Part shown: positions 12,375 to 63,250 of the stretch, in pieces
Numbering within the stretch: the stretch's first letter is position 1
How the letters are laid out: every line of letters starts with the position of its first letter
Assembly (NCBI GenBank): GCA_963921795.1
Contig: OY997650.1
Coordinates: 13,973,660-14,037,659, forward strand
DNA from: Nannobrachium achirus
Lineage: Eukaryota; Chordata; Actinopteri; Myctophiformes; Myctophidae
DNA: 64,000 nucleotides
Direction: 5' to 3'
Program-made: the position numbers and the translations under genes
The notes under the pieces: model-generated
Seen by the model: only the letters and a program-made list of their open reading frames with translations
The model's database searches: none
Told to the model about the DNA's origin: nothing

Positions 12375-12818
12375 GAACGGTCTTCAACAGGGGGTCCGGG
12401 ACCCCTAGGGGGACCTCAGAGTTACTACAGTTGGGCCTCCAAATCTTTGTGAGATCGAATTCTTTTCTCCTTTTTTATATTAACCACTTGAATCCCAGCA
12501 TCCATATTCTGAGAACTTTAGCCAAAGATATCAGATCTACAAGCTCACAACGCCTCGCGCTGGCGTTGTGAGCTTGGACCTTTGTTGTCGAGGGGAAAAA
12601 GAGCAGACTAAGAAGTACAGAGTGAAATGTCAAGATATGTAATGTATTCAAGTAGTTAAATACATATCTGAAAACACAAATTGACATGAATCCAAAATAC
12701 ACTGAATGTGCTGTCAAACAATGAAACTATATGGAAACTATGAAAGGATTGTGGGGGTCCCTGCTTCATCTCTCTCTCAAGTAAGGGGTCCTTGGCCTGA
12801 ATACGTTGAAGACCCCTG
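12375..12818. mobile_element. hAT-like MITE, CAGGGGTCTTCAAC family, copy 1
   Basis: The right end GTTGAAGACCCCTG is intact and the left end is mutated (GAACGGTCTTCAAC). Inside are the family landmarks GGGTCCGGGACCCCTAGGG, the central palindrome at 12521 and CCTTGGCCTGAA. No target duplication survives. Confidence 0.75.
12521..12577. repeat. AGCAGATCTACAAGC palindrome, copy P1
   Basis: The left arm is nearly complete. The right arm stops after GCGTTGTGAGCTTG and then decays. Host: hAT-like copy 12375-12818. Confidence 0.8.
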
Positions 12819-15110
12819 TTATTACAGGCTTGATGGGTCAACCCTCTAGGGATGCAGGGCAGATTGTGGACTCTAGAGGGGCACACTTAACCTGCACTGG
12901 CTTACTATTGATGCAGCTGTCCTATAAAAGGCTCCCCCTCTTGAAGTGTGGTATGGGAGAGAAGAGTCATTGCGAATAAACAGCCCTTGTGAAAGCGGCT
13001 ATAAATCACAGGTTGAAGTGAGTTTCTTTCTCTGGGGTCTATAGGCAAATTGAGTGAATGTTCGTATATTTTGTCACATCTGTAGTAAGTAACACTGACA
13101 AAAATTACAATTGGGTCTGAGGGAGTCTTCCATTCATAGTTATCATGTCATTTAGCAGCAGCAGTGCTATTAAGCACTGTAGATGACTGCTTTGGTGCAA
13201 AACTTTGCTCTCAAAAACTACTGGCCAGAGTGCCGTGGCATTTGTGCACCGTGATCCCCTGGACACCCAAACATTAATCCTTAATTTAGATGTTGGGTAG
13301 ATAAAAACAAAAAAAATAAACAAAAAAAAACCACACACAAAAAAAAAAAAAAAAAAACAGGATTGGCATCACTTTGATTTTCAAACTGTGTTCAAAGAAT
13401 TAGAATCTGTAACCATTTTGTCAATAACAATAAGAAATATAAGCTTGTCTAATCAAATAAAATCTCAACCCAAATCTGCGCTGCCTCAGGGGACTTCGAA
13501 ATGGATGGATTGCCATGAAACTTCCGGAAAGCATTCATGTTTCCCAGAAGATGTCCCCCTTTGATTTTAGTGACTTTATTGCTTTTGCACTAGAGTACCA
13601 CCCATAGGCCAAAATGTCCAATGAAAGTTCACACTTGATGATATATCACAAAATGTAATGGGCAGATTGCAGGATGAATAGCATTCATGTCCTCTAGTCT
13701 AGGGGCTGCTAGCAAGGTTTTAGACTTTTGTTAATTTATGGACCTATTTTTATCTCCAGTGACATGGAGAATAGGAGATATACATTGAAATGTAGCAGTA
13801 GGGTAGGTGTGTGCAGTTGTTTGGACCTTTTGTGGGGTTGAGACTCCACATCTCTGCATTTAATCCAGTCAACGTAAGTGTGTAAACTAATTTACCCCTG
13901 CTGCCATCATCGACTCCGAGTCTGGATTAGTGTGATAAAGGAGTCACTGTCTGCTAGGTTGTGAGACAGCGTGACTATCACTCCTTAGAAAGGTGATAAG
14001 AAAGTACAGTGATGGATACTCCTGTCCACAGAAGCTCTTTTGTATCATGATGATCGCTAAACTGCTCTGTTACTGTTACTATCTAGTTCAATTCATGGGA
14101 GCTGTTGGAGTTTTGACGAATCTGATCTGATTGATCGACAGATCTGGCTGAGAGGGGAAAAGGCTTGATGTATCGATGACAAAATGTTTTTGACGTTACA
14201 TGATGTATGGAATGGCACATTGAATGTTCGTTAATAAGCTACAAAGGGCTGTCTAGGCTAATTAAGGATTCTACTGTTTACTTCTGCTGATTGACAGCTG
14301 TGGACCTCCCTCTTGTATTAGTTGACAACATAGATGATTGATGGCATTTCATTGTAATTTCATTGCCATTTTATTTTTTCATGGGATGGCATACGTCCTA
14401 CCCTGGGACAGGGTAGAACTACATGGGTAGGACTACATTATTCCATTTCCAATTATACCAAATCGAGTACCTCTGATTTCTGAAGCGCATATAATCTGAT
14501 AAATTCAGCGTGTTTTTTTAGTCTTGTTATACAGAAGGACTAATGGGTATGAAACTATGAATTAGGTTCTAGAAAGGCATTTCCTCAGTGTGTGAGAAAA
14601 TTGATCTGAATATTGGATTCTTCTGATGAGGTTGCAGTTATTTTCACCTTTTTCACATTTTTATTGAGAACATCAGCCGATCTAATTTAGATAAGCTGAT
14701 GGCATGTAGTAATGTTACATATAAACGTTTTTGGTGTTCATGTTTCATGGGAGAATCATTTAACAAACAGGGCAACCTCAAGGTGGTAATAGTTGAGCTG
14801 CATGGCTCATTGACTTTCATTTGAGGTGTCTGGCAGTGTGTTTTAGTCCAAGCCTGTTTTGCAGTTTCTAAACGTGGAAGAAAATATTCGCATTATAAAG
14901 CGCGTATGACTTGGACCATAAAAATCACAGCATTGTTTTTTTTGGGTAAGTCATTGCCATCACCTTGTGATTAGGTTAAATCGATTCTTATATTCATAAT
15001 TGTGTATTGATGGCTCTCAGCGGAGATTACAGTTGGATGGGGGGGAAAAAAACAAAAGAACTAGCTGTCACAAGCAGTTCTACAGCACAGAGGAGTAAAC
15101 TTCAATACTT
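12819..15110. other. Intronic sequence, mostly unique
   Basis: An A-rich tract lies at 13310-13358. The block at 13490-13735 (GACTTCGAAATGGATGG, then CATTCATGTTTCCCAGAAG) resembles a diverged dispersed fish repeat. The rest shows no recognised feature. Confidence 0.45.
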
Positions 15111-15193
15111 TTAGATGCAGTTGCAGTGGTTCCCAAACTTTTTAACGTGAGACCCAAAGGAGACATTTTATGTCTCCCCGCCACCCAAACTAG

Positions 15194-15267
15194 TGAAAAC
15201 AGCAGATCTGCAAGCACTCAACGCGCCGCTTCGTGCCGTGTTGTGTGCTTGCAGATCGGCTATTTTC
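15194..15267. repeat. AGCAGATCTACAAGC palindrome, copy P2
   Basis: The arms are AGCAGATCTGCAAGCACTCA and GTGTGCTTGCAGATCGGCT, with a GCGCCGCTTCG-type centre. The outer bases GTGAAAA/TTTTCCC pair only partly. Confidence 0.8.
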
Positions 15268-15378
15268 CCTATTTTGTCTTTTGAAATAATCTTTTTTTTT
15301 TAAACAAAACAAAAAAGGGATATTTACTCGTGCCGTGACCCATAAAAATGGGTCCGCGACCCAAAGATGGTTCCCGAC

Positions 15379-16870
15379 CAGAGTTGGGATCCGTTACTCA
15401 AAAAAGTAGTGCACTACATATTACATATTACCTTTGAAAAAAGTAGTGCCTTACACTACTTCATTACTCCCCGGAGAAAGTAACTAGTTACACTACTCGT
15501 TACACTACTTTTGAGTTACTCCATAAAAAAGCCTGAGATGCATTGCCATATATTAGACGTATTAAATATTTATTATATATTATTATAATATCTAATACAA
15601 TACAGTTATGTTGTTCAATGAAGTGAGTCCCAGGGCTCACTGGTGGTCATTTGAATGAGTCTAATAATAATAATAATATTATGGGTAATAATAAGAAGAA
15701 CAATAAATAAAAATTATAATAATGTAATTATTTCTGAGCCCCTGTGGCCTTGTTGTAATTTAGGTTTGTGCAGCTCACATACATTCATGAGTTTATTCAT
15801 TTATTTATGGACATACAAGGTTTCCACCTGACATTATATAGTTCTGTATCCGTATGTCAGTCAGTTTAAGCAGATTTCATTCCATTTGGCTCCTATGAAT
15901 TTTACAGTCCAGAGGTGGACATGACCTGGCGGAGATCTTCCCCCCACAGAGCGCAGCAGGTCATACTGTAGCAGGCGAAAGTGCATGAACTATAAGGAGA
16001 TGACTCCAGACTCCAGCAGAAGCACTAAAACAATGTCAAACTGATTCTAGCAGCGGAAAACTTCCCATTTGCTTTAAAAAGGCAACATAACAGCGATGTT
16101 TTTGCATAAGGAATTATTAATTGTCCGTCATCATGAGCATCATGTCAGAGTCGCAGAGCTAGGTGAGGTGCTCTTTTTCCCTCTCTCCCTCAGCCTACCG
16201 TGCATTGATTTCCAGTAGGCTTATTCATTCCTGTGGCTCGCAGTCGCTGGATATTTAATAGGGTGTTTTTATTTATCTTGTCACATGTAGGATATTAATC
16301 TAGGCTGTGATTCAAACGTCGGCTTTGCGCACCTCGTGATGCACTGCCGTGCCACTCTTTTTTTCTCTTTTCTCTCTCTCTTTCTCTCTCTCGAAACATA
16401 GGCAAAAGGTAATTCATTTCTTTGCTTGATATTATAAATCTCCTTATTTGGGGGTTTTGCTGTTTTTAGTCCCTTGTTTTAATCTATATGCGACGGTTAT
16501 CAAATGTCGGTGCATGGCTGCTGCTTGATTGCCACAGTGTCACCATGACCTGCTGCTGCGCTGAAAATCAAATGTGTAATCAAATGTGTTTGATTACCTC
16601 TTCTTTGGTTAGTTATTTTAGGGAAATGGCAGTTCCAATGTTCTAAAAGACATGTGATGATGTTTACAATCGGTTCCTGCTGAAGGCAGAAGCAGGAACT
16701 GCAGGCACGAAAGTAGCGAGTAGCGAGTAATGCGACCAGGCAGTATTTGTAGTGTTATTAGTAGTGTTATTATTATTTCGGATGAGTAGTGCCGTTACAC
16801 TACTCGTTACCGAAAAAAGTAGTATTATTACAGTAACTCAGTTACAGTAACTCAGTTACACCCAACTCTG
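15379..16870. mobile_element. hAT-like element CAGAGTTGGG with perfect 8-bp duplication
   Basis: The ends CAGAGTTGGG and CCCAACTCTG are inverted repeats. TTCCCGAC flanks both sides exactly (15371-15378 and 16871-16878). The subterminal parts are rich in GTTACT and AGTAGTG pieces. No transposase frame was recognised in 1492 bp, so it is non-autonomous. It lies inside the older element 15124-16898. Confidence 0.88.
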
Positions 16871-16898: not shown

Positions 16899-17960
16899 CA
16901 GTAGCAGACTGTAGGAGAAAGACAAGAAATGAGGAGACAGCCATCATGTCATTACAACGACCAATCTGGTACACCCTGGCCAAGATATGACTTCCGCTTG
17001 GTTCCAAGATTTCTAGCTGAAGTCTGTGTTTAACGGAAGTTACGTCATGCGGTGCGGGTCTGTTTACATTCCCCAGCGAAAAAACTAAAATAGATTGTAG
17101 CTCTTAGCAGGTGTAACATCACCTGAATCAATGTTTTAGTTTATATATTGTTTATTGTGAGCGCAACCGACGGAGCAGGAGACGTAGACACGTTCTTTTT
17201 CCAGCGGGGAATATGTTAGCAGGAACACCGCACTGTGAAAAGACGACAACTTCCGCAAATATTCAGCCCCACCTCCTAGAACGGTCTCTGCCTCATATCT
17301 TGACCAGGCTTTTCTCTTCGCAGATGAGTAAGCCTGCATGGCTACGCGAGGCTAAATCTGGTATATCCAGACAAGCATGTTAGTCCACTCTCACTCTAGT
17401 GCCACAGTAGTGTATCGTCCTGTAGATTTATTTCTGGACACTCTTAATGACTTAAATATGAGAAAATATGTACTTAACTACAGTCTACACTGTATCTACA
17501 GTAGGCACACTTTGGACATTGGATGTTCCTGGCATTTCTAATGTCATTTCTAATTCTCTATTTCTAATGTTTGATGTTGTCTTTTCAGGTCATTCTGGTG
17601 TTATCATTTTGTCTGTCTCTTGACTGTGACTGTGTAATCTATGGGTATTTCTCATGAGAATGCTTGTGAATTTTTTCCGTGTCCTGTATCGGGGATTACT
17701 ACCAACTACCAAGGTGTGTTGTTAAGTCAACTTGACACAGGTGTGCCACTCACTGCTCTTTGGAACTATTTGTCCTCTCTCTCCCCTAAAGGGAGGACAC
17801 AGCTTTTATGCTCTGAAGAGACTGGGTCTGTTACAGAAAGCTCAGAATCTGCAATGGAGAAGTGTTTGTGTGGGAGGCAGGAGCCTCCTCTTTTGTAATA
17901 TTGTTTTCCCTCCAGCGCCTTTCATAGGATGTGTACTACACAATACAATGCACTGTCTGG
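16899..17960. other. Intronic sequence without recognised features
   Basis: Small open frames at 17136-17339 (minus) and 17641-17898 (plus) show no motif or exon signals. Confidence 0.4.
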
Positions 17961-19010: not shown

Positions 19011-19085
19011 GTGAAAAATTGCAGATATACAAGCTCACAGCGCGGCACCGAGTGCCACGCTGCGAGCTTGTAGATCTGCTATTTG
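19011..19085. repeat. AGCAGATCTACAAGC palindrome, copy P3
   Basis: The centre is GCGCGGCACCGAGTGCC, itself a hairpin. Arms differ at a few bases. Confidence 0.85.
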
Positions 19086-19417: not shown

Positions 19418-19480
19418 TCAAAAATAGCAGATCTACAAGCTCGCAGCGCGCGCTGTGAACTTGTATATATGCTATTTTTC
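19418..19480. repeat. AGCAGATCTACAAGC palindrome, copy P4
   Basis: The arms are short-centred (CGCAGCGCGCGCTGTG) and end in TCAAAAAT/ATTTTTC. Confidence 0.85.
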
Positions 19481-24032: not shown

Positions 24033-24092
24033 AAAATAGCTGATTTACAAGTTGACAGCTCTGTAGATCTCAGCTTGTAGATCTGCTATTTT
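24033..24092. repeat. AGCAGATCTACAAGC palindrome, copy P5
   Basis: AAAATAGCTGATTTACAAG pairs with CTTGTAGATCTGCTATTTT. The centre is short and irregular. No host element ends were recognised. Confidence 0.8.
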
Positions 24093-26668: not shown

Positions 26669-26670
26669 TA

Positions 26671-26909
26671 TCGTGGTTGTCCGGTGAAAACCTTGTATGT
26701 CCAAAACCGTTCGTTTTGCATTTATCATTTTAAAAATGATTTAAACTAGTGAAAACAGCCGATCTACAAGCACACAATGTGTGCCTGTAGATCTGCTGTT
26801 TTCACTACTTTTGTGCGATGTCCTTGTATGATGAAGCAGGGCTTTACTTTGTGAAAGAACGTACACATTTGAAACTTGGAGATACAAGGTTTCCACCCGA
26901 CAGCGACGA
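26671..26909. mobile_element. TA-flanked MITE (TCGTGGTTGTC), copy 1
   Basis: TCGTGGTTGTCCGGTGAAAA pairs with the complement of the right end, TCGTCGCTGTCGGGTGGAAA. The inverted repeats run about 35 bp. TA flanks both ends. Palindrome P6 sits in the middle. TA flanks suggest a Tc1/mariner-type target, but the superfamily is not proven. Confidence 0.75.
26748..26806. repeat. AGCAGATCTACAAGC palindrome, copy P6
   Basis: AGTGAAAACAGCCGATCTAC pairs with the right arm ending GTTTTCACT. The host-specific AGTGAAAAC is thus inverted on both sides. The centre ACACAATGTGTG is short. Confidence 0.85.
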
Positions 26910-26911
26910 TA

Positions 26912-28951: not shown

Positions 28952-29427
28952 CAGGGGTGTGGCACCAAATTCTGGGCCCTGGGTACAAGGATTCACTGCA
29001 GCCCCCCAAGAATGTTCTTCATAGGGGGTACCGTATAACCCATTATTATTATGCGTTCTTTTGTGCTTTAACTATTGAAAAATATAAGTTTTAAAAAAAA
29101 ATATATATGTTTCTATCTCAGTGTTGCTCAAACTTTTTCATGTGAAGGACCCCCAAAATGATATGTATTTGGCCACGGACCCCCATCTCAAAATATGTTG
29201 TTCCAGGGGCCCCCCAGAAGCGTAATCTGAGCAACAAATGTTTGCTTAAAAATTACATATATTCAAAGATTTGCACACATTTTCACGACTTAAAAAATAG
29301 CAGATCTACAAGCTTGCAGCGCGTATATTTGCAATTTTTCTATAGCTAAATTCCAAAATAATTAAGGCCCCTCCACCTTGGGCCCTAGTAACTCAGTCCC
29401 CCTTTCCTCCCCCTGGTGACGCCCCTG
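28952..29427. mobile_element. hAT-like element CAGGGGTGTSGCACC with perfect duplication
   Basis: The left end CAGGGGTGTGGCACC and the complement of the right end CAGGGGCGTCACCAG are inverted repeats. CAAGAGAG flanks both sides exactly (28944-28951, 29428-29435). The interior has TTCTGGGCCCTGGGTACAAG, TTCATGTGAAGGACCCCC and palindrome P7. It is shorter than its relatives, having lost the left palindrome. Confidence 0.88.
29292..29340. repeat. AGCAGATCTACAAGC palindrome, copy P7 (half)
   Basis: The left arm AAATAGCAGATCTACAAGC is intact. Most of the right arm is deleted, leaving TATATTTGCAATTTTTC. Confidence 0.75.
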
Positions 29428-30548: not shown

Positions 30549-30627
30549 GCCGAAAATAGACGATCTACAAGCTCTCAACGCCTCTTAGCGCGAGGCGTTG
30601 AGAGTTTGTAGATCTGCTATTTTTGGC
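30549..30627. repeat. AGCAGATCTACAAGC palindrome, copy P8
   Basis: The centre AACGCCTCTTAGCGCGAGGCGTT folds on itself. The outer GCC/GGC symmetry is the one specific to this hAT family. Confidence 0.88.
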
Positions 30628-30903: not shown

Positions 30904-31382
30904 CAGTGATGGAAAAAGTACTCACATTTATTTACTTAAGTAAAAGTATCGACACTGCAATGTATAAAAACTCTCTTACAACTACGTAAAAGTCTAGAAT
31001 TCTAAGTAAAAGTTCAAAAGTATTGTTATCAAAATGTACTTAAAGTACCAAAAGTAGAAAGTACTTATTGTGCACATGTTTTGAAATGTATCAAAATCTT
31101 TTGAAAATAGCAGATCTACAATGCGGCGTGAATCTCGTGATGCAACGCATTGGGAGTTTACAGATGAGCTATTTTCAAATGGCCGAAATGTATATAGGGC
31201 TGAAGTGGGTTATGTATGTTTTGCAATGATAATTAAAATCTACAAAGTAACTAAAGTTCACAAATAATTGTAGCGGAGTAAAAGTACAATATTTGCCTCT
31301 GAGATGTAGTGGAGTAGGATTAAAAGTACTGAACATTGGAAATAAATACTCTTACTTACTTACTTACTTACTTTGCACCACT
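30904..31382. mobile_element. hAT-like GTACTC family, copy with palindrome P9
   Basis: It starts CAGTGATGGAAAAAGTACTC and ends near CTTTGCACCACT. The interior has many AAGTAAAAGTA and AAAGTAC pieces. The target duplication is not clear. Confidence 0.75.
31101..31178. repeat. AGCAGATCTACAAGC palindrome, copy P9
   Basis: The outer TTGAAAATAG/CTATTTTCAA is well paired. The inner arms are mutated (AATGCGGCGTG against AACGCATTGGG). Confidence 0.75.
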
Positions 31383-32890: not shown

Positions 32891-33224
32891 GTAAAGGAGT
32901 AGTTCACCCAAACATATATAATGAAACCTTCATATTCATACATAAACCACTTTAGCCCTACCTAAGCTGTTGAAAATGGACGATCTACAAGCTTACAACG
33001 CGTCGCATCTTGGCACGTTGTGAGCTTGTAGATCTGCTATTTTCAAACATTTTGTACTTTTACTTTTGGTACTTTAACTAAATTTTGATGCCAATACTTT
33101 TGTACTTTTACTCAAGTGCATTGTGAATTCCAGACTTTTACTTGCAACAGAGTATTAATACATTGCAGTATTGATACCTTTCCTTAAGTATAGAATGTGA
33201 GTACTTTTTTTTCCACCATTGGCC
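32891..33224. mobile_element. Two truncated elements joined: TTAA foldback end and GTACTC family
   Basis: TAAAGGAGTAGTTCACCC at 32892 is the end of the foldback family seen at 48740. From about 32935 the sequence is an inverted GTACTC-family copy that ends GAGTACTTTTTTTTCCACC at 33224 and contains palindrome P10. Confidence 0.65.
32970..33046. repeat. AGCAGATCTACAAGC palindrome, copy P10
   Basis: TTGAAAATGGACGATCTAC pairs with GTAGATCTGCTATTTTCAA. The centre is CAACGCGTCGCATCTTGGCACGT-like and imperfect. Confidence 0.85.
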
Positions 33225-33303: not shown

Positions 33304-33752
33304 CAGTGTTTTCACTGATTTCGTCGACTAAAACTATGACGAAGATTTTTGTCGACTGTTTTTTTCACTGACGAAAACGAAATAAAAACTAGAAAAGAGA
33401 GTAATTGAATGTTTGGTTGCTCTCAGGTGTTGCGTGCTGAAAATATCCGATCTACAAGCTCACAACGCGTCGCGCGACGCATTGTGAGCTTGTAGATAGT
33501 CTATTTTCAGCACACAACCAAGTTTAAAATCAGCCATTACGATGCCACCAACAAGGCCTGCCAAAATACATTTTAGTCGACTAAATCAACTGTAGATTTA
33601 GTCGCCTAAAATCTTATGATAATTAGTCGACTAAAATTAAGACTAAAACTAATACTTTTCAGGTGACTAAATTATGACTAAAACCGAATGACATTTTATT
33701 CAAAAGACTATGACTAAAACTAAATCAAAATTTGCTGTCAAAAACAACACTG
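33304..33752. mobile_element. hAT-like MITE CAGTGTTTTCAC with perfect duplication
   Basis: CAGTGTTTTCACTGA pairs with the complement of GTCAAAAACAACACTG. GTCTGCTT flanks both sides exactly (33296-33303, 33753-33760). The subterminal regions are rich in GTCGACTAAAA. It carries the most extended palindrome of the window, P11. Confidence 0.9.
33429..33518. repeat. AGCAGATCTACAAGC palindrome, copy P11 (90 bp)
   Basis: GTTGCGTGCTGAAAAT at the left pairs with ATTTTCAGCACACAAC at the right, a host-specific extension of 16 bp with one mismatch. The inner arms follow, and the centre CGCGTCGCGCGACGC is nearly perfect. Confidence 0.92.
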
Positions 33753-33854
33753 GTCTGCTTGCCCTGTTGGTCAACCACCACACAGATCTTCCGGCTATAG
33801 GTTGGAAACGGTTAACCCGTTTAGGCCTAGAATTATTGAATGCTTTAACCAGTG

Positions 33855-33908
33855 AAAAATAGCAGATATACAAGCTCACAGCTGCGAGCTTGTAGATCTG
33901 CTATTTTT
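33855..33908. repeat. AGCAGATCTACAAGC palindrome, copy P12
   Basis: The arms join almost directly (CAAGCTCACAGCTGCGAGCTTG), so the GC-rich centre is lost. It pairs over about 24 bp. Confidence 0.88.
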
Positions 33909-34255
33909 GAAAAAGTCGTGAAAATGTGTGCAAATCTTTGAATATATGTATTTTCAAAGCGAACTTTTGTAACTCAAACTTTGCTTCTGGGAGGTCCCTC
34001 CGTCCCTGGAACTAAATATTTTGAGATGCGGGTCCGTGGCCAAATAAATATCATTTTGGGGGTTCTTCACATGAAAAGGTTTGAGAACCACTGAAATAGT
34101 AGTCTCTCAAGAACAGACTAACTGAGCTCCATTTAATTGAAAATGACCTTTTCTTTGACGATGGCTAAAGCCAGATTGCTGACATAGAAGCATAGGTTTT
34201 TCAAAAAACCTTAGAAGGATTCAAGGGGTCAAAATTCTATTTTTTCACGATTTTT

Positions 34256-34313
34256 CAAAAATAGCAGATCTACAAGAGTGCCGCGCTGCAAGCTTGTATA
34301 TCTGCTATCTTTC
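34256..34313. repeat. AGCAGATCTACAAGC palindrome, copy P13
   Basis: The left inner arm is partly deleted (CTACAAGAGTGCCGCG). The outer arms are intact. Confidence 0.8.
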
Positions 34314-34684
34314 AATAGTTAAAGCATAAAATAATGATACACAAGAATGTGTACCCGTTCTAAATGGGTTTTAAACAGAGACAGATCAGACGGCACATCC
34401 TGGGCGAGTCCGACCCAGAGGGAATCCCAGAGAGCAACTCTCTCCGTGTTCAGCCTGGCTTCTGCTCTGTTTGCAACGTAATTGCACAGGGCCAAGGTCT
34501 GCCATGCTAGAGACACACACACACACGCGCAGACACACAGGGGTGTCGCACCAAATTCTGGGCCCTGGGTACAAGGATTCACTGTGGGCCCCCCATGAAT
34601 GTTCTTCATCATAGGGGGAGGGGGTTTAACCCATTTAGACTGGGAACGCATTATTACGCGTTATTTTGTGCTTTAATTATTGAA

Positions 34685-34728
34685 AGATAGCAGATATACA
34701 AGGTCAGATATACAAGCTCTATTTTTTG
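34685..34728. repeat. AGCAGATCTACAAGC palindrome, copy P14 (degenerate)
   Basis: GATAGCAGATATACAAGGTC is followed by AGATATACAAGCTC in the same orientation. The right arm is replaced at the junction with the nested element. Confidence 0.6.
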
Positions 34729-35827: not shown

Positions 35828-35876
35828 TGGAAATAGCTGATCTGCAAGCTCACAATGCGTTTTCTGTTATTTTCAA
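35828..35876. repeat. AGCAGATCTACAAGC palindrome, copy P15 (degenerate)
   Basis: The left arm GGAAATAGCTGATCTGCAAG is present. The right arm is reduced to CTGTTATTTTCAAAA. Confidence 0.7.
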
Positions 35877-37179: not shown

Positions 37180-37480
37180 GTGCACGTGTGTGTGTGTGTG
37201 TGTGTGTGTGCGTGTCTATGGAGGGAAGGTGGGGGTTAATGCTCACCCCTAGCTTACCTCAGCATTTTTGGAGCCATCACAATGTAATGTCATTTTAATG
37301 GTATATGCTAGCAGAATTCAGTGGATTAACCCTGCTGTAAGGAGATTATTGTATCAAAGTTCAACAGTTCATCTTTCAGCGATATGTTGTCATCCAATTA
37401 GAATGAATACATTGCAAATGATATAATAATGCTGCAATGTTTGTTTTTTCTATTCATGGGGTACACGGCGTACTGTAGCT
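36734..37480. other. Intronic sequence with a (TG)n microsatellite
   Basis: The (TG)n tract at 37134-37210 is broken once by CGTGCACG. Nothing else was recognised. Confidence 0.6.
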
Positions 37481-37484
37481 TTGT

Positions 37485-37752
37485 GAGGCGTTGTGAGCTT
37501 GTAGATCGGCTATTTTCGGCAAAGAGGTTCGATGTAGAGGGGAAAAAGAGCTGACTAAGTGCAGAGTGAAAGGTCAAGTTTATTAAGTATTGACGGTTCA
37601 AGTGGTTAAATATCTGAAAACACAAATTGACATGAATCCAAAATACACTGATTGTGCTGCCAAGCAATGAAACTATATAGAATCTATGAAAAGGTTGTGC
37701 TCTCTGCTTCATCTCTCTCTCAACCAAGGCCTGAAAACGTTGAAGACCCCTG
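37485..37752. mobile_element. hAT-like MITE CAGGGGTCTTCAAC, right half only
   Basis: It begins inside the palindrome (right arm P16, 37485-37520) and runs through GACATGAATCCAAAATACAC to GTTGAAGACCCCTG. The break falls within the palindrome. Confidence 0.8.
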
Positions 37753-38037: not shown

Positions 38038-38039
38038 TA

Positions 38040-38266
38040 TCGTCGTTGTCGGGTGAAAACCTTGTATGTCCAAAACGTTTTGCATTTTTCGTTTTTAAAA
38101 TGATCTAAACTAGTGAAAACAGCCGTTCTGCGTTGTGTGCTTGTAGATCTGCTGTTTTCACTACTTTTGTGCGACGGCCTTGTATGATGAAGCAGGGCTT
38201 TACTTTCCGAAAGTAACATACAAATTTAAAACTTGGAAATACAAGGTTTCCACCCGACAACGACGA
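38040..38266. mobile_element. TA-flanked MITE (TCGTCGTTGTC), copy 2
   Basis: TCGTCGTTGTCGGGTGAAAA pairs with the complement of TTTCCACCCGACAACGACGA. TA flanks both ends. Palindrome P17 lies in the middle. Confidence 0.82.
38112..38162. repeat. AGCAGATCTACAAGC palindrome, copy P17 (shortened)
   Basis: AGTGAAAACAGC and GCTGTTTTCACT are intact. The left inner arm is deleted (CGTTCTGCGTTGTGTGC). Confidence 0.82.
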
Positions 38267-38348
38267 TATAGTGCTTTAACCCAAAAGAAACATTTGTTTC
38301 GACCAAAAAATATCACTTACCCTACCATTTATTCTTAAAAGCTTGCTG

Positions 38349-38416
38349 AAAATAGCTGATCTGCAAATCTCACGGTGCATCGCGTTGCGTCGTGAGGCTG
38401 TAGATCGGTTATTTTT
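38349..38416. repeat. AGCAGATCTACAAGC palindrome, copy P18
   Basis: AAAATAGCTGATCTGCAAAT pairs with GGCTGTAGATCGGTTATTTT. The centre is CACGGTGCATCGCGTTGCGTCGTG-like. The host element was not identified. Confidence 0.75.
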
Positions 38417-39621: not shown

Positions 39622-40045
39622 CAGGGGTCCTCAGAGTTACTACAGGGGGTCCTCCAAATCTTTGTGTGATAGAGGCTTTTTTTCCTACTTTTCTATATTA
39701 ACCACTTGAACCATAGCATCCATATTCTGAGAACTTTAGCCAAAAATAGCAGATCTACAAGCTCACAACGCCTCGCACTGCGAGGCGTTGTGAGCTTGTA
39801 GATTGGCTATTTTTGGCAAAGAGGTTTCATGTAGAGGGGGAAAAGAGTACAGAGTGAAAGTTTACTAAGTATTGACGGTTCAATTTGTTAAATATCTGGA
39901 AACACAAATTTACATGAACCCAAAATACACTGATGATTGTGCTGTCAAATGATGACACTATGGTATCTATGGGTTGTGGGGGGTCCCTGCTTCATCTCTC
40001 TCACGACTAAAGGGTCCTTGCCCTGAAAACGTTGAAGACTGGGGT
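39622..40045. mobile_element. hAT-like MITE CAGGGGTCTTCAAC, copy with rearranged ends
   Basis: The left end lacks the TCTTCAAC block (CAGGGGTCCTCAGAG). The right end reads GTTGAAGACTGGGGTCTTCA, an inverted duplication of the terminus. P19 is intact. Confidence 0.75.
39739..39817. repeat. AGCAGATCTACAAGC palindrome, copy P19
   Basis: It is almost perfect: GCCAAAAATAGC and GGCTATTTTTGGC outside, CAACGCCTCGC and GCGAGGCGTTG inside, loop ACT. Confidence 0.93.
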
Positions 40046-41422: not shown

Positions 41423-41894
41423 CAGTGGTGGAAAAAGTACTCACATTTTGTACTTACGATGTAGATGTACTTTGTTACAAGTAAAATTCAGGAATTCAAA
41501 ATGTACTTAAGTAAAAGTGTGAACGTGTTGGCATCAACATGTACTAAAGTACCAAAAGTGAAAGTACACAATGTTTGAAAATAGCAGATCTACAAGCTCA
41601 CAACGCGTCGCATCGCAACACGTTGTGAGCTTGTAGATCGTCTATTTTCAAATAGCCTAGGTATGAAATAGGGCTAAAGTGGTTTATGTATGTTTTTTAA
41701 GATTATTTATATCTGCAAAGTAACGAGTAACTAAAGTTTTCAAATAATTGTAGTGGTGTAAAAGTACAATATTTGGATCCGAGATGTAGTGGAGTAGAAG
41801 TAAACGTATTGGAAATTGGAAACACTCAAGTAAAGTACAAATACTTCAAAATTGTTCTTAAGTACATTACTTCAGTATCAGTAGATTTACTTAA

Positions 41895-42285: not shown

Positions 42286-42596
42286 CAGGGTTCCTACGGT
42301 CATGAAATTCCTGGAAATATTTTGAGGTGTGAGCATGTAGATCTGCTATTTTCACAATAAAACCGTGTTATACAAAATTCCTCTACTCTTAGTGCTCGTC
42401 AGGGTTCAAATATGATTATTTCGGATGTTGAGAACCATTGGCATACACTACCTGTCTTTGGGCATTGCGCATGGGAGTAAACGACTCGTTATTGAGCTGA
42501 ATTATTGTTATATAGTCCTGGAAATCTGGTTAAATATTCTGGAAAACGTTTGGAAAAGTTTTGGAAATGAATTGGTAAAGATGTGTGGGAACCCTG
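42286..42596. mobile_element. hAT-like MITE CAGGGTTCCTACGG
   Basis: CAGGGTTCCTACGGTC pairs with the complement of GTGTGGGAACCCTG. The interior has repeated GGAAA pieces. P21, a right-arm fragment, lies at 42325-42355. The target duplication is unclear. Confidence 0.7.
42325..42355. repeat. AGCAGATCTACAAGC palindrome, copy P21 (right arm only)
   Basis: GTGAGCATGTAGATCTGCTA and TTTTCAC remain. The left arm is absent. Confidence 0.75.
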
Positions 42597-44295: not shown

Positions 44296-44714
44296 TAGGG
44301 CTGTCGCAATTATTACATAATAGTCTAATCGCGATTATTTGACATAATCGCGATTATTTTTCAGAATCGTCATAATCGTTTCCATGTTGAAAAATGTTCA
44401 TATATTAAAAGAAAATGCAAAAATAGTGGAAATAGCCGATCTACAAGCTCACAACGCGTCTCATCGCGACGCGTTGTGAGCTTGTAGATTGGCTATTTCC
44501 ACTATCAATGTTCTTTTTTAAGTATAAAGTTGTCAAATATGTCAGCAATTTCTTTGTATATTTAGGTTATGTGTCATATCTGCTATGTGCAACTTCAAAG
44601 CCTAAAAGCCAAACAGAAATGTAATTGTCAGCGGAAAAAACACAATTAAATCGTTAATCGCAATTATTGACAATTAATCGTCATGTAAAATGTCATAATC
44701 GTGACAGGCCTCTA
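44296..44714. mobile_element. hAT-like MITE TAGGGCTGTCGC
   Basis: TAGGGCTGTCGCAAT pairs with the complement of TCGTGACAGGCCTCTA. Flanks TATCGCTG and TATAACTG agree at six of eight bases. The subterminal parts are rich in AATCGCGATTATT. It carries P22. Confidence 0.8.
44423..44505. repeat. AGCAGATCTACAAGC palindrome, copy P22 (83 bp)
   Basis: The host-specific ATAGTGGAAAT is inverted on the far side as ATTTCCACTAT. The stem continues through GCTCACAACGCGTC to a tiny loop, with two mismatches in about 38 pairs. Confidence 0.94.
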
Positions 44715-46525: not shown

Positions 46526-47236
46526 TAGGGCTGGGATATACACTAGTATAGACCTAATGATATATCACTGGGATATACAGTTTAGACCAAATGATATATC
46601 ACTTATCACAATATTTTTACACAATATTGATATAGACGTTCAGAAATAGCCTCGTTGTGAGCTTGTAGATCTGCTATTTTTGAAAATGTTCCAATTTTTA
46701 TAACTTAATCCAAACGTAGACCTATACAGTATCTACTACAGTATACAGTATGTTGTTATAGCCTTCAAGCTGGAAGCACCTATGTGTGTAGTTGTTGCAA
46801 TATACAGTATAGCAACATAATATATATATATATAAAATATATAAAAAATCAAACCCAAGTTTGAAGTGTGCGTGCATGCGTGCATGCGTGTGTGTGTGTG
46901 CAGCAGTTCATTTCAGGATTGTGCGTGTGCGTGCGTTTATTATAGTAGTTCATTTCAAGGTTGTGCGTGTGCGTGCGTCTATTATAGTAACCCACTCGCA
47001 TAGTAACCTACACACACTCTCACACAAAGGAGACGGCGTACCACTGCAAAAAAAAAAAGAGTCAATATTTAGAAGCCGTTTTAGAATCTTCCTCAGGTCT
47101 AAATGGGAGACAACACACTTAAGTCATATCACAATATTCAAAATAACAGACAATATCTAGTGTCATATCACAGTATCTATAATATCGATATCATACATAC
47201 CGGTAGGCTGTGGGCACTATGGATTGCCCAGCCCTT
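46526..47236. mobile_element. hAT-like element TAGGGCTGGGATA with perfect duplication
   Basis: TAGGGCTGGG and CCCAGCCCTT are inverted repeats (last base changed). GTGCTCAT flanks both sides exactly (46518-46525, 47237-47244). The interior has repeated GATATATCAC, P23 and short GTGCGTGCG runs. Confidence 0.88.
46644..46686. repeat. AGCAGATCTACAAGC palindrome, copy P23 (left arm deleted)
   Basis: AAATAGC is followed directly by CTCGTTGTGAGCTTGTAG and ATCTGCTATTTTT. Confidence 0.78.
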
Positions 47237-51069: not shown

Positions 51070-51729
51070 CCACTTAAACCCTCTATAATTGGTAAAAGGT
51101 ACTTACTTGATACAGCCTTTTTTTCACACTTAAACCCTCTATAATTTTTTCACACTTAAACCCTCTATAATTGGTAAAAGGTACTTACTTGATACAGCCT
51201 TTTTTTCACACTTAAACCCTCTATAATTGGTAAAAGGTACTTACTTGATACAGCCTTTTTTTCACACTTAAACCCTCTATAATTTTTTCACACTTAAACC
51301 CTCTATAATTGGTAAAAGGTACTTACTTGATACAGCCTTTTTTTCACACTTAAACCCTCTATAATTTTTTCACACTTAAACCCTCTATAATTGGTAAAAG
51401 GTACTTACTTGATACAGCCTTTTTTTCACACTTAAACCCTCTATAATTGGTAAAAGGTACTTACTTGATACAGCCTTTTTTTCACACTTAAACCCTCTAT
51501 AATTTTTTCACACTTAAACCCTCTATAATTGGTAAAAGGTACTTACTTGATACAGCCTTTTTTTCACACTTAAACCCTCTATAATTTTTTCACACTTAAA
51601 CCCTCTATAATTGGTAAAAGGTACTTACTTGATACAGCCTTTTTTTCACACTTAAACCCTCTATAATTTTTTCACACTTAAACCCTCTATAATTGGTAAA
51701 AGGTACTTACTTGATACAGCCTTTTTTTC
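51070..51729. repeat. Two-unit minisatellite, order ABA-ABABA-ABABABA
   Basis: Unit A is 56 bp (CACACTTAAACCCTCTATAA, then GGTAAAAGGTACTTACTTG to a T run). Unit B is 26 bp (the same start cut to a short T run). Nine A and six B units alternate in the order A B A, A B A B A, A B A B A B A. Units are virtually identical. Confidence 0.92.
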
Positions 51730-51744
51730 ACTCGATCAGATATC

Positions 51745-51798
51745 TTTGCCAAAAAATAGCGGATCTACAAGCTCACAGATCTGCTATTTTTTGGCAAA
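51745..51798. repeat. AGCAGATCTACAAGC palindrome, copy P25
   Basis: TTTGCCAAAAAATAGC and GCTATTTTTTGGCAAA are perfectly inverted. The inner arms have collapsed (GATCTACAAGCTCACAGATC). Confidence 0.9.
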
Positions 51799-51908
51799 TG
51801 TTCCACCCCAGGATAATGGATTTTGATTTTATCGTGATAATATGGTAAATCACGATTTCTTTTGTCACAATAATCGTGATATGAAAATGTCATATCGTCC
51901 CATCCCCA

Positions 51909-52470
51909 CCTGACGGGCAAGTGCATTCCGTCTTCATGAAATATTGTCTATTTATGAAGAACGATTCTACCTTTTTACAACTAGAAGTAGCTTGCACTCA
52001 TTCTGGTTTTTCAAAGTCACTGTTGCCACTCAGCAATTATCGATTTAGCATTGATTTTATGTTTTCCAGCTAAGATTTTACCTATCATTTTATAATGGGC
52101 GATTAACTTTTCGGGACATCTGGGCATAGCCTTTGGGCAGAACATGACCTGTACTTGCCAGATGGGCAAGTGCCTCTGAGACCGTGTTAACCCCTGAGCT
52201 TTGTTTAATTCAATTTATTGTATGAATGAACATGAGTGATACACATCAGCTACATATGTGTGAAAGGACACCCTTGCACATGCACACACTTGGCTACCAA
52301 AAAAAAAAAATAGCAGATCTACAAGGTCATAAGTCATAACCCATTGACCACACAACTTGTTTTGAGCTTGTAAATCTGCTATATTCAGCGAAGACAAACA
52401 TTGGTGTGTAGAGGGACAAAAGGAATGGGGCCTAGTATTAAACAGTAGACCCCTTGGGGACACCGGGCAA
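51909..52470. other. Intronic sequence with palindrome P26
   Basis: Apart from the palindrome at 52300-52386, nothing was recognised. Confidence 0.4.
52300..52386. repeat. AGCAGATCTACAAGC palindrome, copy P26
   Basis: TAGCAGATCTACAAGGTC pairs loosely with GAGCTTGTAAATCTGCTA. The centre is long and unpaired. Confidence 0.75.
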
Positions 52471-55032: not shown

Positions 55033-55489
55033 CAAGGGTGTCGCACTAAATTCTGGGCCCTGGGTTCACTGTGGGCCCCCCACGAATGTTCTTCATAGGG
55101 GGATAGGGGGAGGGGGTTTAACCCATTTAGACTGGGAACGCATTATTACACGTTATTTTGTACTTTTAACTATTGACAATAGCAGATCTACAAGCTCACA
55201 ACGCGGCACCGAGTGCCGCGCTTCGAGCTTGTAGATCTGCTATTTTTTTTAAATCGTGAAAAAGTCTTTGAATATTTTCTACAGTATATGTGTCTTCTAA
55301 ATCCTTCGAAGGTTTTTTTTGAAAAACCTATGTTTCTATGTCAGTGGCGTTCAAACCTTTTCATGTGAAGGACCCCCAAAATGACATGTATTTGGCCACG
55401 GACCCCCTTCTCAAAATATTTAGTTCCAGGGACCCCCCAGAAGCAACATTTTTTGTTACAAATGTTCGCCCCCCCCCTTGTGACACCCC
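55033..55489. mobile_element. hAT-like CAGGGGTGTCGC family, copy with P27
   Basis: CAAGGGTGTCGCACTAAATT starts it and CCCCTTGTGACACCCCG ends it. TTTAACCCATTTAGACTGG and TTCATGTGAAGGACCCCC lie inside. The target duplication is unclear. Confidence 0.75.
55178..55245. repeat. AGCAGATCTACAAGC palindrome, copy P27
   Basis: The centre CGCGGCACCGAGTGCCGCG is a perfect hairpin. The arms are intact. Confidence 0.93.
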
Positions 55490-55820: not shown

Positions 55821-56203
55821 CAGGGTTCCCCAATAGGCGGCCCGCGGGCCATTTGCGGCCCGCAGGGGGCTACTGTCTGGCCCCCACCAACCCCTGTAAT
55901 AATGGTGGTATAAGAGCAGCAACAACACTAGTATATCGTCATTGTCGGGTGGATAACCCGTATCTCAAAATGTGTACATTCTTTCGCAAGGTAAAGCTCT
56001 GCTTCATCAAACAAGGCCGTCGCACAAAAGTAGTGAAAACATAACGGTTTTGGACATACAAGATTTTCACCCGACAGCGACGATATCTAAACTGTCACTG
56101 GAGTAGCGGGAACGCCACCGTCGCCCCCCTGCAATGTTGTGGCCCTCGGCTTGGTACCCTAGACATAATTTGGCCCTTGGGGAAAACTAATTGGGGAACC
56201 ATG
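55821..56203. mobile_element. Charlie-like hAT MITE with perfect duplication
   Basis: CAGGGTTCCCCAA pairs with TTGGGGAACCATG apart from one terminal base. CTGTAGAC flanks both sides exactly (55813-55820, 56204-56211). The interior starts GGCGGCCCGCGGGCC. It has no palindrome of its own but is interrupted by the TA-flanked MITE at 55936. Confidence 0.9.
55936..56083. mobile_element. TA-flanked MITE, copy 3, lacking the palindrome
   Basis: TCGTCATTGTCGGGTGGATA and the complement of TTTTCACCCGACAGCGACGA are the ends. TA flanks both. It is inverted to copies 1 and 2, and the segment carrying the palindrome is missing. Confidence 0.8.
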
Positions 56204-56580: not shown

Positions 56581-57106
56581 GTCTGCTATTTTCACAATGT
56601 TCGCCTCTTGCTTACTTAATATTTGACAGTTTGGCCAGTTTGGTATTAAAGCGGTCTTGAAAATCCTTAAATTGTCACTTTATAAATGTGCAGATACCCT
56701 GTATACACTTATGTTGGTTTGTTTACCGTTGAGTGAGACTTTTTTTTTACATTAAGCAATTCAATTCAATTTTCAATTCAAAGGAGCTTTATTGGCATGA
56801 GAAGCTAATCATCTGGGGACCCCACAAAATAATTTTGGGTCCCAATCCCAATAAGTTTGAGAACCACTGACCTAATGCATATCAAACTGGGGGTCTTTTG
56901 AAATGAAGAAGGTTGAGAACCCCTGCCAGAGAAAGACAGGCATCCAGCCAGTGAGCCCTCCTTCAGGGGTGTCGCACCAAATTCTGGGCCCCGAGTACAA
57001 GGGTTCACTGCGGGCCCCCCATGAATGTTCTTCATAGCGGGAGGGGGGTTTAACCCATTTAGACTGGCAACGCATTGTTACGCATTATTTTGTGCTTTAA
57101 CTATTG

Positions 57107-57170
57107 AAAAATAGCAGCTCACAGCGCGGCACCGAGTGCCGCCCTGCAAGCATGTAGATCTGCCATTTTT
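57107..57170. repeat. AGCAGATCTACAAGC palindrome, copy P28
   Basis: The left arm lost GATCTACAAG (AATAGCAGCTCACAGCGC). The centre GCGGCACCGAGTGCCGC is a hairpin. Confidence 0.85.
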
Positions 57171-57347: not shown

Positions 57348-57425
57348 TTCAAAAACAGCAGATCTACAAGCTCGCAGCGTGGAACTCTGTGCTGCGCCGT
57401 GAGCTTGTATATCTGCTATTTTTCA
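57348..57425. repeat. AGCAGATCTACAAGC palindrome, copy P29
   Basis: CAGCAGATCTACAAGCTCGC pairs with GTGAGCTTGTATATCTGCT. The centre is GTGGAACTCTGTGCTGCGC. Confidence 0.88.
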
Positions 57426-60221: not shown

Positions 60222-60310
60222 TAGATAGATACCTTTATTATCCCACGGGGGAAATTCAGTTGCCCAGAGGCAACACAGCAGTTAAAGGTTACAAGTTACA
60301 AAGAAAAAGA
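60222..60310 (-). mobile_element. Retroposon 3' end (complement of AATAAAGGTATCTATC)
   Basis: GATAGATAGATACCTTTATT and CCCACGGGGGAAATTCAGTTG, in minus sense, give a GAATTTCCCCC...AATAAAG...TATCTATC tail typical of a fish LINE. Confidence 0.55.
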
Positions 60311-60694: not shown

Positions 60695-60702
60695 TCATAT
60701 TG

Positions 60703-61160
60703 CAGGGGTCTTCAACAGGGGGTCCGGGACCCCTAGGGGGTCCTCAGAGTCATTACAGGGGGTCCTCCAAATCTTTGAGTGATAGAATTTTTTTATATTA
60801 ACCACTTGAAACCTAGTGTGCATATATTGAGAACTTTAGCCAAAGATAGCAGATCTACAAGCTCACAACGCCTCGCGCTGCGAGGCGTTGTGAGCTTGTA
60901 GATCTGCTATTTTCGGCAAAGAGGTTTGGTGTAGAGGGGGAAAAAGAGACGACTAAGTACAGAGTGAAAGGTCAAGTTTATTAAGTATTGACGGTTCAAG
61001 TGGTTAAATATCTGAAAACACAAATTGACATGAATCCAAAATACACTGATCATCGTGCTGCCAAACAATGAAACTATATATACTAGAAGGTAATGGGGGT
61101 CCCTGCTTCATCTCTATCTCAACTAAGGGGTCCTTGGCCTGAAAACGTTGAAGACCCCTG
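60703..61160. mobile_element. hAT-like MITE CAGGGGTCTTCAAC, best-preserved copy
   Basis: CAGGGGTCTTCAAC and GTTGAAGACCCCTG are perfect inverted ends. Flanks TCATATTG and TTATATTG agree at seven of eight bases. At 458 bp it is full length and carries P30. Confidence 0.92.
60839..60917. repeat. AGCAGATCTACAAGC palindrome, copy P30
   Basis: The arms through CAACGCCTCGC and GCGAGGCGTTG are perfect with loop GCT. Only two outer bases mismatch. Confidence 0.95.
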
Positions 61161-62070
61161 TTATATTGAATAACTTACTAGCGTTACTGCCTTCACCTTT
61201 CATGGAATTGGATAGTGGTGAGTGTGTACGCTATTTAAACACTCCTGGCCAGCAGCATGTACCTTTCGCTTGCCTGGCTCGGTTGTGAAGTCGTTAATTA
61301 TGGCTACAACAGAGCGTTTTGAAAGCCCGATAGTTGAATGGAATGCAGACAGAATCGTCGGTGTTCGACAAAGCAGAGTGAGCCTGCAAGTTCACTACAG
61401 TCACGTAGCAGCAAGAAGCAATGTTCCTTTCATCTTTGTAGTAAAAATGTTTTTTAAAACCGCCAGTAATCACTAAAAATGCCCCGGCCAATGAAAACAG
61501 GTTATAATGAAAGGATAGTAACTGGAAGATAAGATTTGAGGGAGAGTGACGGGTTAGTACGAGAGGAAGAGGAACAGTTTCAGCTGCAGGAGGGATTTTA
61601 ATTCAGCTAAGAATGAAGTCTTTGATCTCAAACTAGAATTGGAAAATAACTTTCGTTATCTGAAATAAAAAAAATAAAGATTAGGCTTTACAAAACCTTT
61701 TTGAATTTCATTTCATCCCTGACAAATACTCCATATTAGAATAGAAATATTACAATAAAAAAACTAACACTAAAACTAATAATATGCTGTATATTATATA
61801 TAATATATTCCTTTTCAAAACATAAAAACTGCAAACTCACTTTTAAAAAACAAACAGTGAAGGTACCCTCACTGGGGTTAGGTCACAGCAGTGCATGCAT
61901 AATGACTCGTCAAGCTTAATTTGTACCCTGTCTCCTCCGGAAGAGCAGGATTTACAACCTGGGCATCAGGAGGACGTCAAAACCAACCAACCGAAGAGGA
62001 GATGGAGGAAGAACTCATTGCGTTCACGTTATTTATTACAGGGCTCAATTCCTGACCAATGTTCCTGGGA
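61161..62070. other. Intronic sequence without recognised features
   Basis: An 84-codon open stretch at 61222-61476 has no recognised motif or splice signals. Confidence 0.4.
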
Positions 62071-62089
62071 CTGTGGCTAGAATTGCGGG

Positions 62090-62520
62090 GCCAGGTGCTC
62101 GGGTTGGCACAGTAGCAAAGTCCCTGCTCACCTACCCAACGAGGTTACTTGTGGGTTGGAATCCACTGCGGTGCATCAGGCTTTGTCTGGCGTCAATGCA
62201 ATCACAGTTTGCCCATGTTCAGGGGAGAGAAGCCTGGCCGGGCGGGGAGGGTGATATTGGTCACTGCATGGTCATGCAGTAGCTCAGGGGTAGAGTGGCC
62301 GCCATTAGAACACAAGAGGGTTCCCAAAGGGTTCCCAGTTCGATCCTGGGCTCCCCCAGAGTTGGTGTCAAAGAGTCTGTGAGCAAGACTCTGAACCCCT
62401 TGTTGCTCCCGGTGAGCAGGTTGGTGCCTTGCATGGTTTCCTCCGCCATCGTTGTATGAACGTGTGAGTGAATGGGTGAATGTAATGCACAATCTCTGTA
62501 AAGCGCCTTGGATAAACGAA
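62090..62520 (+). mobile_element. tRNA-derived SINE, with a second tRNA-like head upstream
   Basis: At 62278, AGTAGCTCAGGGGTAGAGTG resembles a pol III A box, and CCCAGTTCGATCCTGGGC (62335) a B box arm. The body continues CTTGTTGCTCCCGGTGAGC, GAATGGGTGAATGTAATGC and CTGTAAAGCGCCTTGGATAA. A second tRNA-like start (TTGGCACAGTAGCAAAGTCC) lies at 62104. Confidence 0.7.
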
Positions 62521-62904
62521 AGGCCAGTAAACTTGAAAAGCCACTGAAATAACCCTGCATTGAGGGCCAATATCCCTGTAATGGATGTAGTTAATTTTGT
62601 GTGGTCCTGGTTAATGGGAAGATGAAGCTATTATGGAGTCATTGTGATGTCACAGGGTCACCACGACGCTGTGCTGACCAAGCACTCATCTGATGCTCAC
62701 TTTCTCTAAAGATAATGGACGAATGGATCCAGGAAGTCCTCTGGGGTTTTCATAGCGATGACAAAGAAGCTAAGGCTTTCCGTTGTTATTTATAGACCTT
62801 TGATCTACGTTTTTTCTTTTTTTTTTTTGCATTAAGGTGGCCGAATAAGACCATTTTGTTTTACGCTTAACATCATATGTCAGCATCTCCCGTTAATACT
62901 ACAT
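62521..62904. other. Intronic sequence without recognised features
   Basis: A T-rich tract lies at 62812-62830. Confidence 0.4.
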
Positions 62905-63250
62905 TCAATACTCGTTTATCGTGATAAAAAAACTCACAATAATCTTATCATGGAGATTTGATTTATCGTGTTATCGTCCTCCTCCTTCATGCACTGGGAT
63001 CAATTCAGCTTTTATTTGCAGAGCTGCATATCCGGTACCACTTAAACCCTCTATAATTTGTAAAAGGTACAAGTTATAATATACGTATTTGATACAGCCT
63101 TTTTTCACTCTGTATCAAATGTCTTTTGCCAAAAAATAGCCGATCTACAAGCTCCCAACGCATCGTGTTGTGAGCGTGTAGTATGTGTGATAATATCGCA
63201 AATCGCGATTTCTTTTGTCACAATAATCGTGATATATACGTTAAGACCTG
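62905..63250. mobile_element. hAT-like TAGGGATGGGACGATA relative, ends lost, single minisatellite unit
   Basis: CTCGTTTATCGTGATAAAAA, CATGCACTGGGATCAATTCA and CACTTAAACCCTCTATAATT match 50920-51908 in order, but unit A is present once and unit B is absent. P31 lies near the right. Confidence 0.8.
63124..63181. repeat. AGCAGATCTACAAGC palindrome, copy P31 (right arm cut)
   Basis: TTTGCCAAAAAATAGCCG matches P25 of the same host family. The right arm ends at GTGAGCGTGTAG. Confidence 0.8.

Follow-up and report, generated by a model that had tools for sequence, protein, structure and literature searches.

A non-coding hairpin of about 85 bases carried by different families of small DNA transposons in Nannobrachium achirus

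How can one short palindrome come to lie inside many transposons whose ends and remaining sequence differ? The question is raised by a stretch of 64,000 nucleotides from Nannobrachium achirus (Myctophidae; assembly GCA_963921795.1, contig OY997650.1, positions 13,973,660 to 14,037,659 of the forward strand), referred to as the window. An earlier note, made from these letters, had counted about 31 copies of a palindrome with two 17-base arms in at least ten host families, and had read them as a mobile or copied palindrome that is spread by transposons. Our analysis shows that what is repeated is a hairpin module, non-coding and about 85 bases long, with a 41-bp stem and a 3-base tip, rather than a pair of 17-base arms, and that about nine families of small non-autonomous DNA transposons serve as its independent carriers. 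These families are of three insertion types, 8-base hAT-like, TTAA and TA. The account that we favour, and to which we give an even chance, is that the hairpin is a passenger of these families that was spread by copying delimited by the hairpin, together with the nesting of its carriers in other transposons.

The hairpin and its copy number

When up to three mismatches are allowed, the 17-base arm has 45 matches in the window, where 0.16 are expected, and a chance origin of the matches is thus rejected. These matches group into 29 clusters, and an nhmmer profile model likewise finds 29 copies. As 27 copies are common to both searches, the combined number is 31, in agreement with the earlier count; 11749..11809 and 34689..34719 were found by the arm-cluster search only, and 31104..31175 and 38349..38415 by nhmmer only. 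Genome-wide, the exact 17-mer arm occurs 155,994 times on both strands (0 for the mirrored control) and the exact 11-mer core GATCTACAAGC 463,584 times (97 for the mirrored control). In addition, a sample of 20 stretches of 10 kb, chosen blind to the hairpin, each at 10.0 Mb of contigs C1-C20, holds 80 copies that occupy 4,363 of 200,000 bases. The hairpin therefore is not a cluster local to the window, and it makes up about 2% of the sampled DNA. If the sample is typical, there are roughly 0.66 million (660,000) copies genome-wide, although this should be considered a rough estimate, as the sample consists of 20 places, all at 10.0 Mb. An exact 20-mer of the hairpin had 0 matches in viral contigs and 0 in prokaryote contigs. 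A scan of the window against Rfam gave no match at the gathering threshold, and the best match of one hairpin copy reached 39.6 bits, as compared to a curated score of 100; a microRNA precursor or another Rfam family is rejected, since all Rfam matches were below threshold.

The hairpin comprises a conserved mid-stem, a tip that inverts and a basal stem with family-specific letters that still pair. Among 59 clusters with head-to-head arms in the first 288 kb examined, 34 are 61 bases long, with 27 bases between the two arms, and many of the shorter ones carry central deletions. Outside this 61-base core, the left and right flanks of one copy read outward alike. Specifically, in 71 copies, the within-copy identity at offsets 6-9 is 0.76, 0.49, 0.73 and 0.66, as compared to 0.47, 0.25, 0.30 and 0.30 with shuffled partners, and falls to background by about offset 15. 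For 11 family consensuses (that of family I shifted by one base by hand, that of H taken from single copies, and the H and K strings typed in), the match of each arm to its own partner is 62 of 66 at offsets 1-6, where shuffling gives 55.2, and 51 of 66 at offsets 7-12, where shuffling gives 21.5 and none of 20,000 rounds was as high. At offsets 13-18, the match is 21 of 66 versus 18.1, with 4,465 of 20,000 as high. Across the 41 pairs of 20 representative hairpins, 89.1% of cells are paired. Two-sided changes are found in 20 pairs and 84 cells, as compared to 12.5 pairs and 33.5 cells upon shuffling, and to 6-12 pairs and 12-29 cells when the partners are slid by 1-3 columns; it should be noted that this set contains up to four copies per family, such that common changes are counted repeatedly. 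Five stretches folded alone gave z-scores of -9.5 to -15.6.

Carrier families and the nesting of carriers

Clustering the flanks of 168 hairpin copies separates families A to K, for which the labels hAT, TTAA (piggyBac-like) and TA were assigned solely from ends and duplications. Families A (end CCCATTTAGG) and C (end CCACTTGAACC) are of the TTAA type and family B (terminal inverted repeat, TIR, TCGTC) is of the TA type, while D (end TAGGGCTGTC), F (end TAGGGATGGGAC), H (end CAGTGTTTTCAC, known from the window copy and one related flank), J (end CAGGGACGTGC) and K (end CAGTGGTTCCCAAAC) are labelled hAT. For E (end CAGTGGTGGAAA), G (end CAGTGGTTCTCAACC) and I (end CAGGGGTGGGCAAC), the labels are based on one end or on ends judged by eye. 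Family I is not counted among the nine, as it comprises four loci (L001, L002, L003 and L029) on C1 at 25-36 kb, where four hairpins with like flanks within 10 kb may be a local duplication or a clustered family; it was absent from the family-flanked places, described below, of the window and the 200-kb sample.

Carriers are flanked by target duplications. Six hairpin-bearing elements at other loci present 8/8-base duplications; one of these elements, L013:1052-1464, belongs to family F. A J element (L018:7624-7903), a K element (L023:1089-1447) and family H have 8-base duplications as well, as have, judged by eye, the D copies L069, L072 and L076. In the window, the H element at 33304..33752 (+ strand, ends CAGTGTTTTCAC) has the 8-base duplication GTCTGCTT on both sides, the hAT element CAGGGTTCCC at 55821..56203 (+) has the duplication CTGTAGAC, and the hAT element CAGGGGTCTTCAAC at 60703..61160 (+) has one of 7/8; with the TTAA and TA ends, these bear out part of the host ends given earlier. 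Where both ends were found, the carriers are 227 to about 560 bases long, with TIRs and 8-base, TTAA or TA flanks, as in miniature inverted-repeat transposable elements (MITEs). A TTAA target is not common to all carrier families, as 8-base hAT and TA carriers exist. In the TIR scan that gave the six elements at other loci, several spurious TA pairs formed by the hairpin itself were dropped by eye. An unanchored search for TIRs with an exact 8-base duplication in the window and sample (264 kb together) yielded 15 elements, six with the hairpin, and none for the mirrored control; of the nine hairpin-free elements, at least L028:6064-6444 is spurious, as hairpin arms had been paired there as ends. 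A short TA-flanked inverted-repeat pair at L021:4483-4661 holds additional partial hairpin arms, and at L050, about 446-624, hairpin arms in a row form an array of the core itself.

Carriers also lie within one another. TTAA elements of family A lie inside the hAT CAGGGGTGTCGC: a pair of same-direction arms at 34689..34719, with TTAA at 34626 and the hAT end at 34538, and a hairpin at 57108..57169, with TTAA at 57050 and the hAT-like end at 56964. A third A hairpin, at 55178..55246, has TTAA at 55118 inside the hAT-like CAAGGGTGTCGC (55033). The CAGGGGTCTTCAAC element holds a TTAA carrier C at 60798-61007 with its hairpin at 60843-60913, and the CAGGGTTCCC element holds a core-less TA element of family B at 55934-56085. 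At other loci, B-flanked hairpins lie within L010:659-1106, L013:6642-7199 and L026:2255-2766, and the hAT element L026:3999-4500 has an A interior without TTAA ends. Several of the hosts listed earlier are thus the same carrier placed within different hATs, and the number of independent carriers is smaller than that of terminal repeats; the varied ends hold as far as they were checked, while the figure of at least ten families becomes about nine.

How far the likeness between carriers extends can be seen from the consensuses of B and K, which agree at 14 of 14 bases to the left of the core and at 12 of 13 to the right, and are then at chance level; these limits are those of the stem base. Since B is TA-flanked and K is an old hAT, with different ends and target types, and since they are alike only to the stem base, two transposons here share one hairpin. 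The K consensus comprises 11 copies, 8 of which were fetched for alignment; an initial search gave 4,175 candidates, 40 of which were scored, and these are 73-79% identical, except for eight near-identical copies at or near the query locus on C15, indicating that family K is old. The K element L023:1089-1447 itself recurs at eight places with 100% identity (rounded), 17.5-18.3 kb apart, on C15 at 9.93-10.06 Mb, a large segmental tandem array. No direct repeat was seen at the hairpin edges in the comparison of the B and K consensuses, and terminal repeats of the hairpin's own with a target duplication were not found, the basal stem letters varying by family. The hairpin interior is more conserved between families than are the terminal repeats, and beyond the stem the flanks of different families do not align, largely as the earlier note had said of its hosts. 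The hairpin is thus homologous between families, and this homology stops near the stem base.

Persistence, tip inversion and routes of spread

The hairpin or a remnant is present in nearly all family copies that were seen. In the window and sample, both flanks of one family were found at 41 places. Of these, 36 have the hairpin, and four of the other five have visible arm remnants, with only a stem piece found at 56011 in the window (family B). With the hairpin or a remnant in 40 of 41 places, it therefore entered each family early. Nine D copies and eleven K copies that were aligned all contain the hairpin or part of it. Genome-wide, exact basal stems of D enclose a gap of 47-75 bases at 3,002 places and of 0-30 bases at 364, and those of B at 17,920 and 1,538 places, respectively, such that the middle is lost in about 8% (B) and 11% (D) of exact-stem copies. 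Among the short-gap matches listed (about 100 for each family), most consist of remnants whose two sides meet at short repeats, such as GATC or AGCT, while three D places and one B place have a gap of zero, with the 61-base core exactly absent. Flanks without a nearby core, judged by eye among the matches listed, were mostly offset or remnant. A search for the hAT junction without carrier C gave four matches at 2-3 mismatches (0 for the control; no positive control was run), and by look these four do not seem to be family members. Near L028:6689, a sequence like a family G copy has about 20 other bases in the hairpin's place and may be an empty or replaced site. At the same locus, near-identical G relatives at about 7811 and 8972, 1.16 kb apart, have the hairpin cut to a stub.

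The tip of the hairpin changes orientation. In family D, the arms have a constant orientation, whereas the tip is found as either ATC or GAT. In a tree that was built from 29 D copies with the core left out, the 28 labelled tips (16 ATC and 12 GAT) require 10 changes, as compared to about 9.3 when shuffled; the starred branches force three changes, and a single-clade origin is rejected (p 1.8e-11). In this tree, L072 and L084 have long branches and the left ends of L080 and L086 were not found. As ten GAT and ten ATC copies were chosen on purpose, their ratio has no meaning for frequency. In family B, the tip reads ACC in 38, GGT in 22 and otherwise in 15 of 75 intact copies; these were taken from about 100 listed, of which 23 that differ in length and two members of a set of three identical adjacent rows were set aside. 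Three B hairpins with identical listed letters, at C1 2748552, 2749920 and 2751282, are spaced by about 1.37 kb and are probably a tandem repeat. Arm deletions at short repeats are found among the short-gap D and B matches listed. The recurrent inversion of the tip suggests that the hairpin extrudes in vivo.

According to the account that we favour, the hairpin could have reached new families by two routes. In the first, a carrier would transpose into another transposon, and the pair would be trimmed and then amplified. In the second, the hairpin would be copied while DNA within a transposon is repaired or replicated. Replication stalls at long palindromes, which also favour template switching. 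If a polymerase stalled at the base of the hairpin and changed template there, the hairpin would become the unit of transfer and no target duplication would be left, while switching within the hairpin would invert the tip and may help to keep the arms complementary while their letters change. The carriers may also select for a hairpin of about this size, an effect that the present data do not separate from copying.

Several points weigh against this account. The copying step itself was not seen, and no hairpin-free ancestor of a host was established in the flank and short-gap searches, so that the data do not distinguish between insertion, copying and inheritance from a very old element common to the hosts. 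The searches were, moreover, inclined towards the hairpin. The both-flank queries derive from hairpin-bearing copies and would miss distant hairpin-free hosts; the short-gap patterns require both basal stems, such that hosts without any history of the hairpin would be overlooked; and most aligned D and K copies are best matches to a hairpin-bearing query, which biases the 9 of 9 and 11 of 11, the copies of the window and sample being the exceptions. In the comparison of B and K, the B left consensus was chosen partly by the stem motif, although exact B stems enclose the longer gap at 17,920 places genome-wide. The cores of the two families are not identical, with AAGCAC in B and AAGCTC, or what is left of it, in most K copies, and their tips are different. 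Families C and F seem related beyond the stem. Finally, most families retain a mismatch at pair 4, which in several of them sets A in one arm against C in the other. Among 75 B copies, 52 keep A/C, while 10 have C/C, five A/A, four the reverse and four other pairs. Elsewhere in the B arms, three symmetric two-sided changes were found, as compared to 0.55 expected (p 0.018), and a mixed sample gave four, where 3.99 two-sided changes of any kind are expected, no excess. Symmetrisation in single copies is weak. Quasi-palindrome correction as the full account is rejected, as single copies are barely symmetrised.

A selected structure is a real rival and may act as well. Here, the hairpin would help its carriers multiply, be it through pairing of the ends, stalled replication, a factor that binds the structure or a small RNA. 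MITEs with the hairpin would thus have become abundant, and pairing would be kept by selection. The similar stem length, the conserved middle with free letters at the base and tip, the high copy number and the presence of the hairpin in six of the 15 elements found independently of the core are consistent with this reading. Nonetheless, the other nine lack it, even if at least one is a false pair, the middle is lost in some copies of B and D whose stems remain exact, and the Rfam matches stay below threshold; we consider such selection less likely than not as the explanation.

Nesting might also suffice by itself, with one or two old TTAA or TA transposons having entered hATs and been trimmed until the hairpin was what remained. 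The nested pairs in CAGGGGTGTCGC, CAGGGGTCTTCAAC and CAGGGTTCCC and the B-flanked hairpins at L010, L013 and L026 agree with this, and the element with an A interior that lacks TTAA ends favours it. However, trimming in K must then have halted at the stem base on both sides, and flank comparisons revealed no carrier remnant in D, G, H or J, such that we consider nesting alone unlikely.

Lastly, a hairpin or foldback that is mobile by itself, perhaps entering the tips of other hairpins, with transposons only as hosts, would explain a like unit in unrelated hosts, palindromic host letters beside the core that could be a palindromic target, and the four exact core absences among the short-gap matches listed, but no target duplication or enzyme was seen, no copy was shown outside transposons and the exact D joins also fit a deletion between two TA at the core edges, and we thus consider this very unlikely. 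The hairpin is probably not mobile by itself; what stands of the earlier proposal is a passenger in many carriers, whereas its self-mobility was not shown.

Copies in the window, known systems and significance

The remaining copies in the window can be described by family. Family A hairpins lie at 19015..19084 and, at the other end and with a central deletion, at 19421..19478, with a partial one at 29294..29324. A TTAA element of this family (CCCGTTTAGG, 33812..34310, +, right end not fixed) has hairpins at 33856-33907 and 34258-34310, and at 57352..57422, an A interior is fused to a different end (group A1h). The TA-flanked B elements are found at 26669..26911 (+; TIR TCGTC), with a centrally deleted hairpin at 26752-26802, and, including the TA, at 38038..38268 (+), with TIRs at 38040-38266 spanning 227 bases and a hairpin remnant at 38123-38158. 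Family C contributes a hairpin with one degraded arm at 12525..12578 (TTAA ends at 12480 and 12659), one at 30553..30623 within a CAGGGGTCTTCAA end pair (29754, 30769), one arm at 37477..37516 and the TTAA-flanked carrier CCACTTGAA at 39698..39891 (+; hairpin 39743-39813). The D element, a hAT MITE (TAGGGCTGTC), spans 44296..44712 (+, right end by eye) with its hairpin at 44430-44498. Family E hairpins are seen at 32973..33043 and at 41578..41648 (left end CAGTGGTGGAAA at 41423; right end not found), with one arm at 35831..35859 and the weak nhmmer hit at 31104..31175. The H hairpin, at 33440..33507, has the basal stem GTGCTGAAAAT/ATTTTCAGCAC. The K element, hAT-like CAGTGGTTCCCAAAC, spans 15124..15395 (+, right end approximate), with its core at 15196-15266, or 15187-15274 with the basal stem, and family G (GAGCATGTAGATCTGCT) is represented by one arm at 42326..42352. 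Family F has a centrally deleted hairpin at 51753..51818 and a partial one at 63133..63181. A tandem array at 51071-51731, with an 82-base unit and forms of 56, 138 and 220 bases, is built from the F left flank and stops just before the hairpin at 51753. No family was given to the degraded hairpins at 24033..24092, 38349..38415 and 52307..52382 or to one arm at 46647..46680; the copy at 11749..11809 is weak, a single arm with three mismatches.

One of the closest known systems is CMITE of Acropora corals, in which an interior of 75 bases is conserved across MITE families with different terminal repeats (PMC2872659), as is the hairpin here. The origin of that interior is unknown and was called a mystery, and the families, with about 1,600 copies in A. 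millepora, have TTAA and a piggyBac-like terminal motif in common (PMC2872659). Whereas CMITEs are all of the TTAA type, the carriers considered here also include 8-base hAT and TA elements, and the available parts of PMC2872659 describe neither a hairpin unit nor sharing across superfamilies, both of which are seen here. Angel is a zebrafish MITE that folds and that inspired a model of stem-loop amplification and reinsertion (Izsvak et al. 1999, via PMC12628747). Compared by description only, Angel itself folds, whereas here an 85-base hairpin is common to different transposons. Repetitive hairpin-forming elements have spread in the intergenic DNA of sponge mitochondria (PMC2800124), and the GC clusters of yeast mitochondria are short spreading repeats (PMC4478555). 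Both are organellar, while the hairpin here is nuclear, lies inside DNA transposons and has very many copies. In the available parts of the CMITE, Angel and sponge accounts, no hairpin common to transposon superfamilies is described. Among the open-access papers listed by literature searches, with Repbase and Dfam lying outside the search, nothing on this hairpin unit was seen, and in PMC4683633 'angel' refers to angelfish only; a search for papers printing its core letters, as far as their text was available, matched only one of six 14-mers, in a paper on human bilirubin genetics.

Taken to its full extent, our reading would describe a vertebrate nuclear hairpin of about 85 bases, free of coding sequence and of any enzyme, that parasitises transposons, crosses superfamilies, sets the copied stretch by its own folding and makes up about 2% of the genome, a description that we advance tentatively and as less than probable. 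Where MITE families obtain their interiors has long been asked, and the hairpin makes this question testable in one genome, because the module is found repeatedly in about nine families with three types of insertion and seems to delimit itself. With thousands of copies that bear tip inversions and arm deletions, it offers a natural germ-line record of the behaviour of a hairpin. It would also mislead any transposon annotation that groups families by internal similarity.

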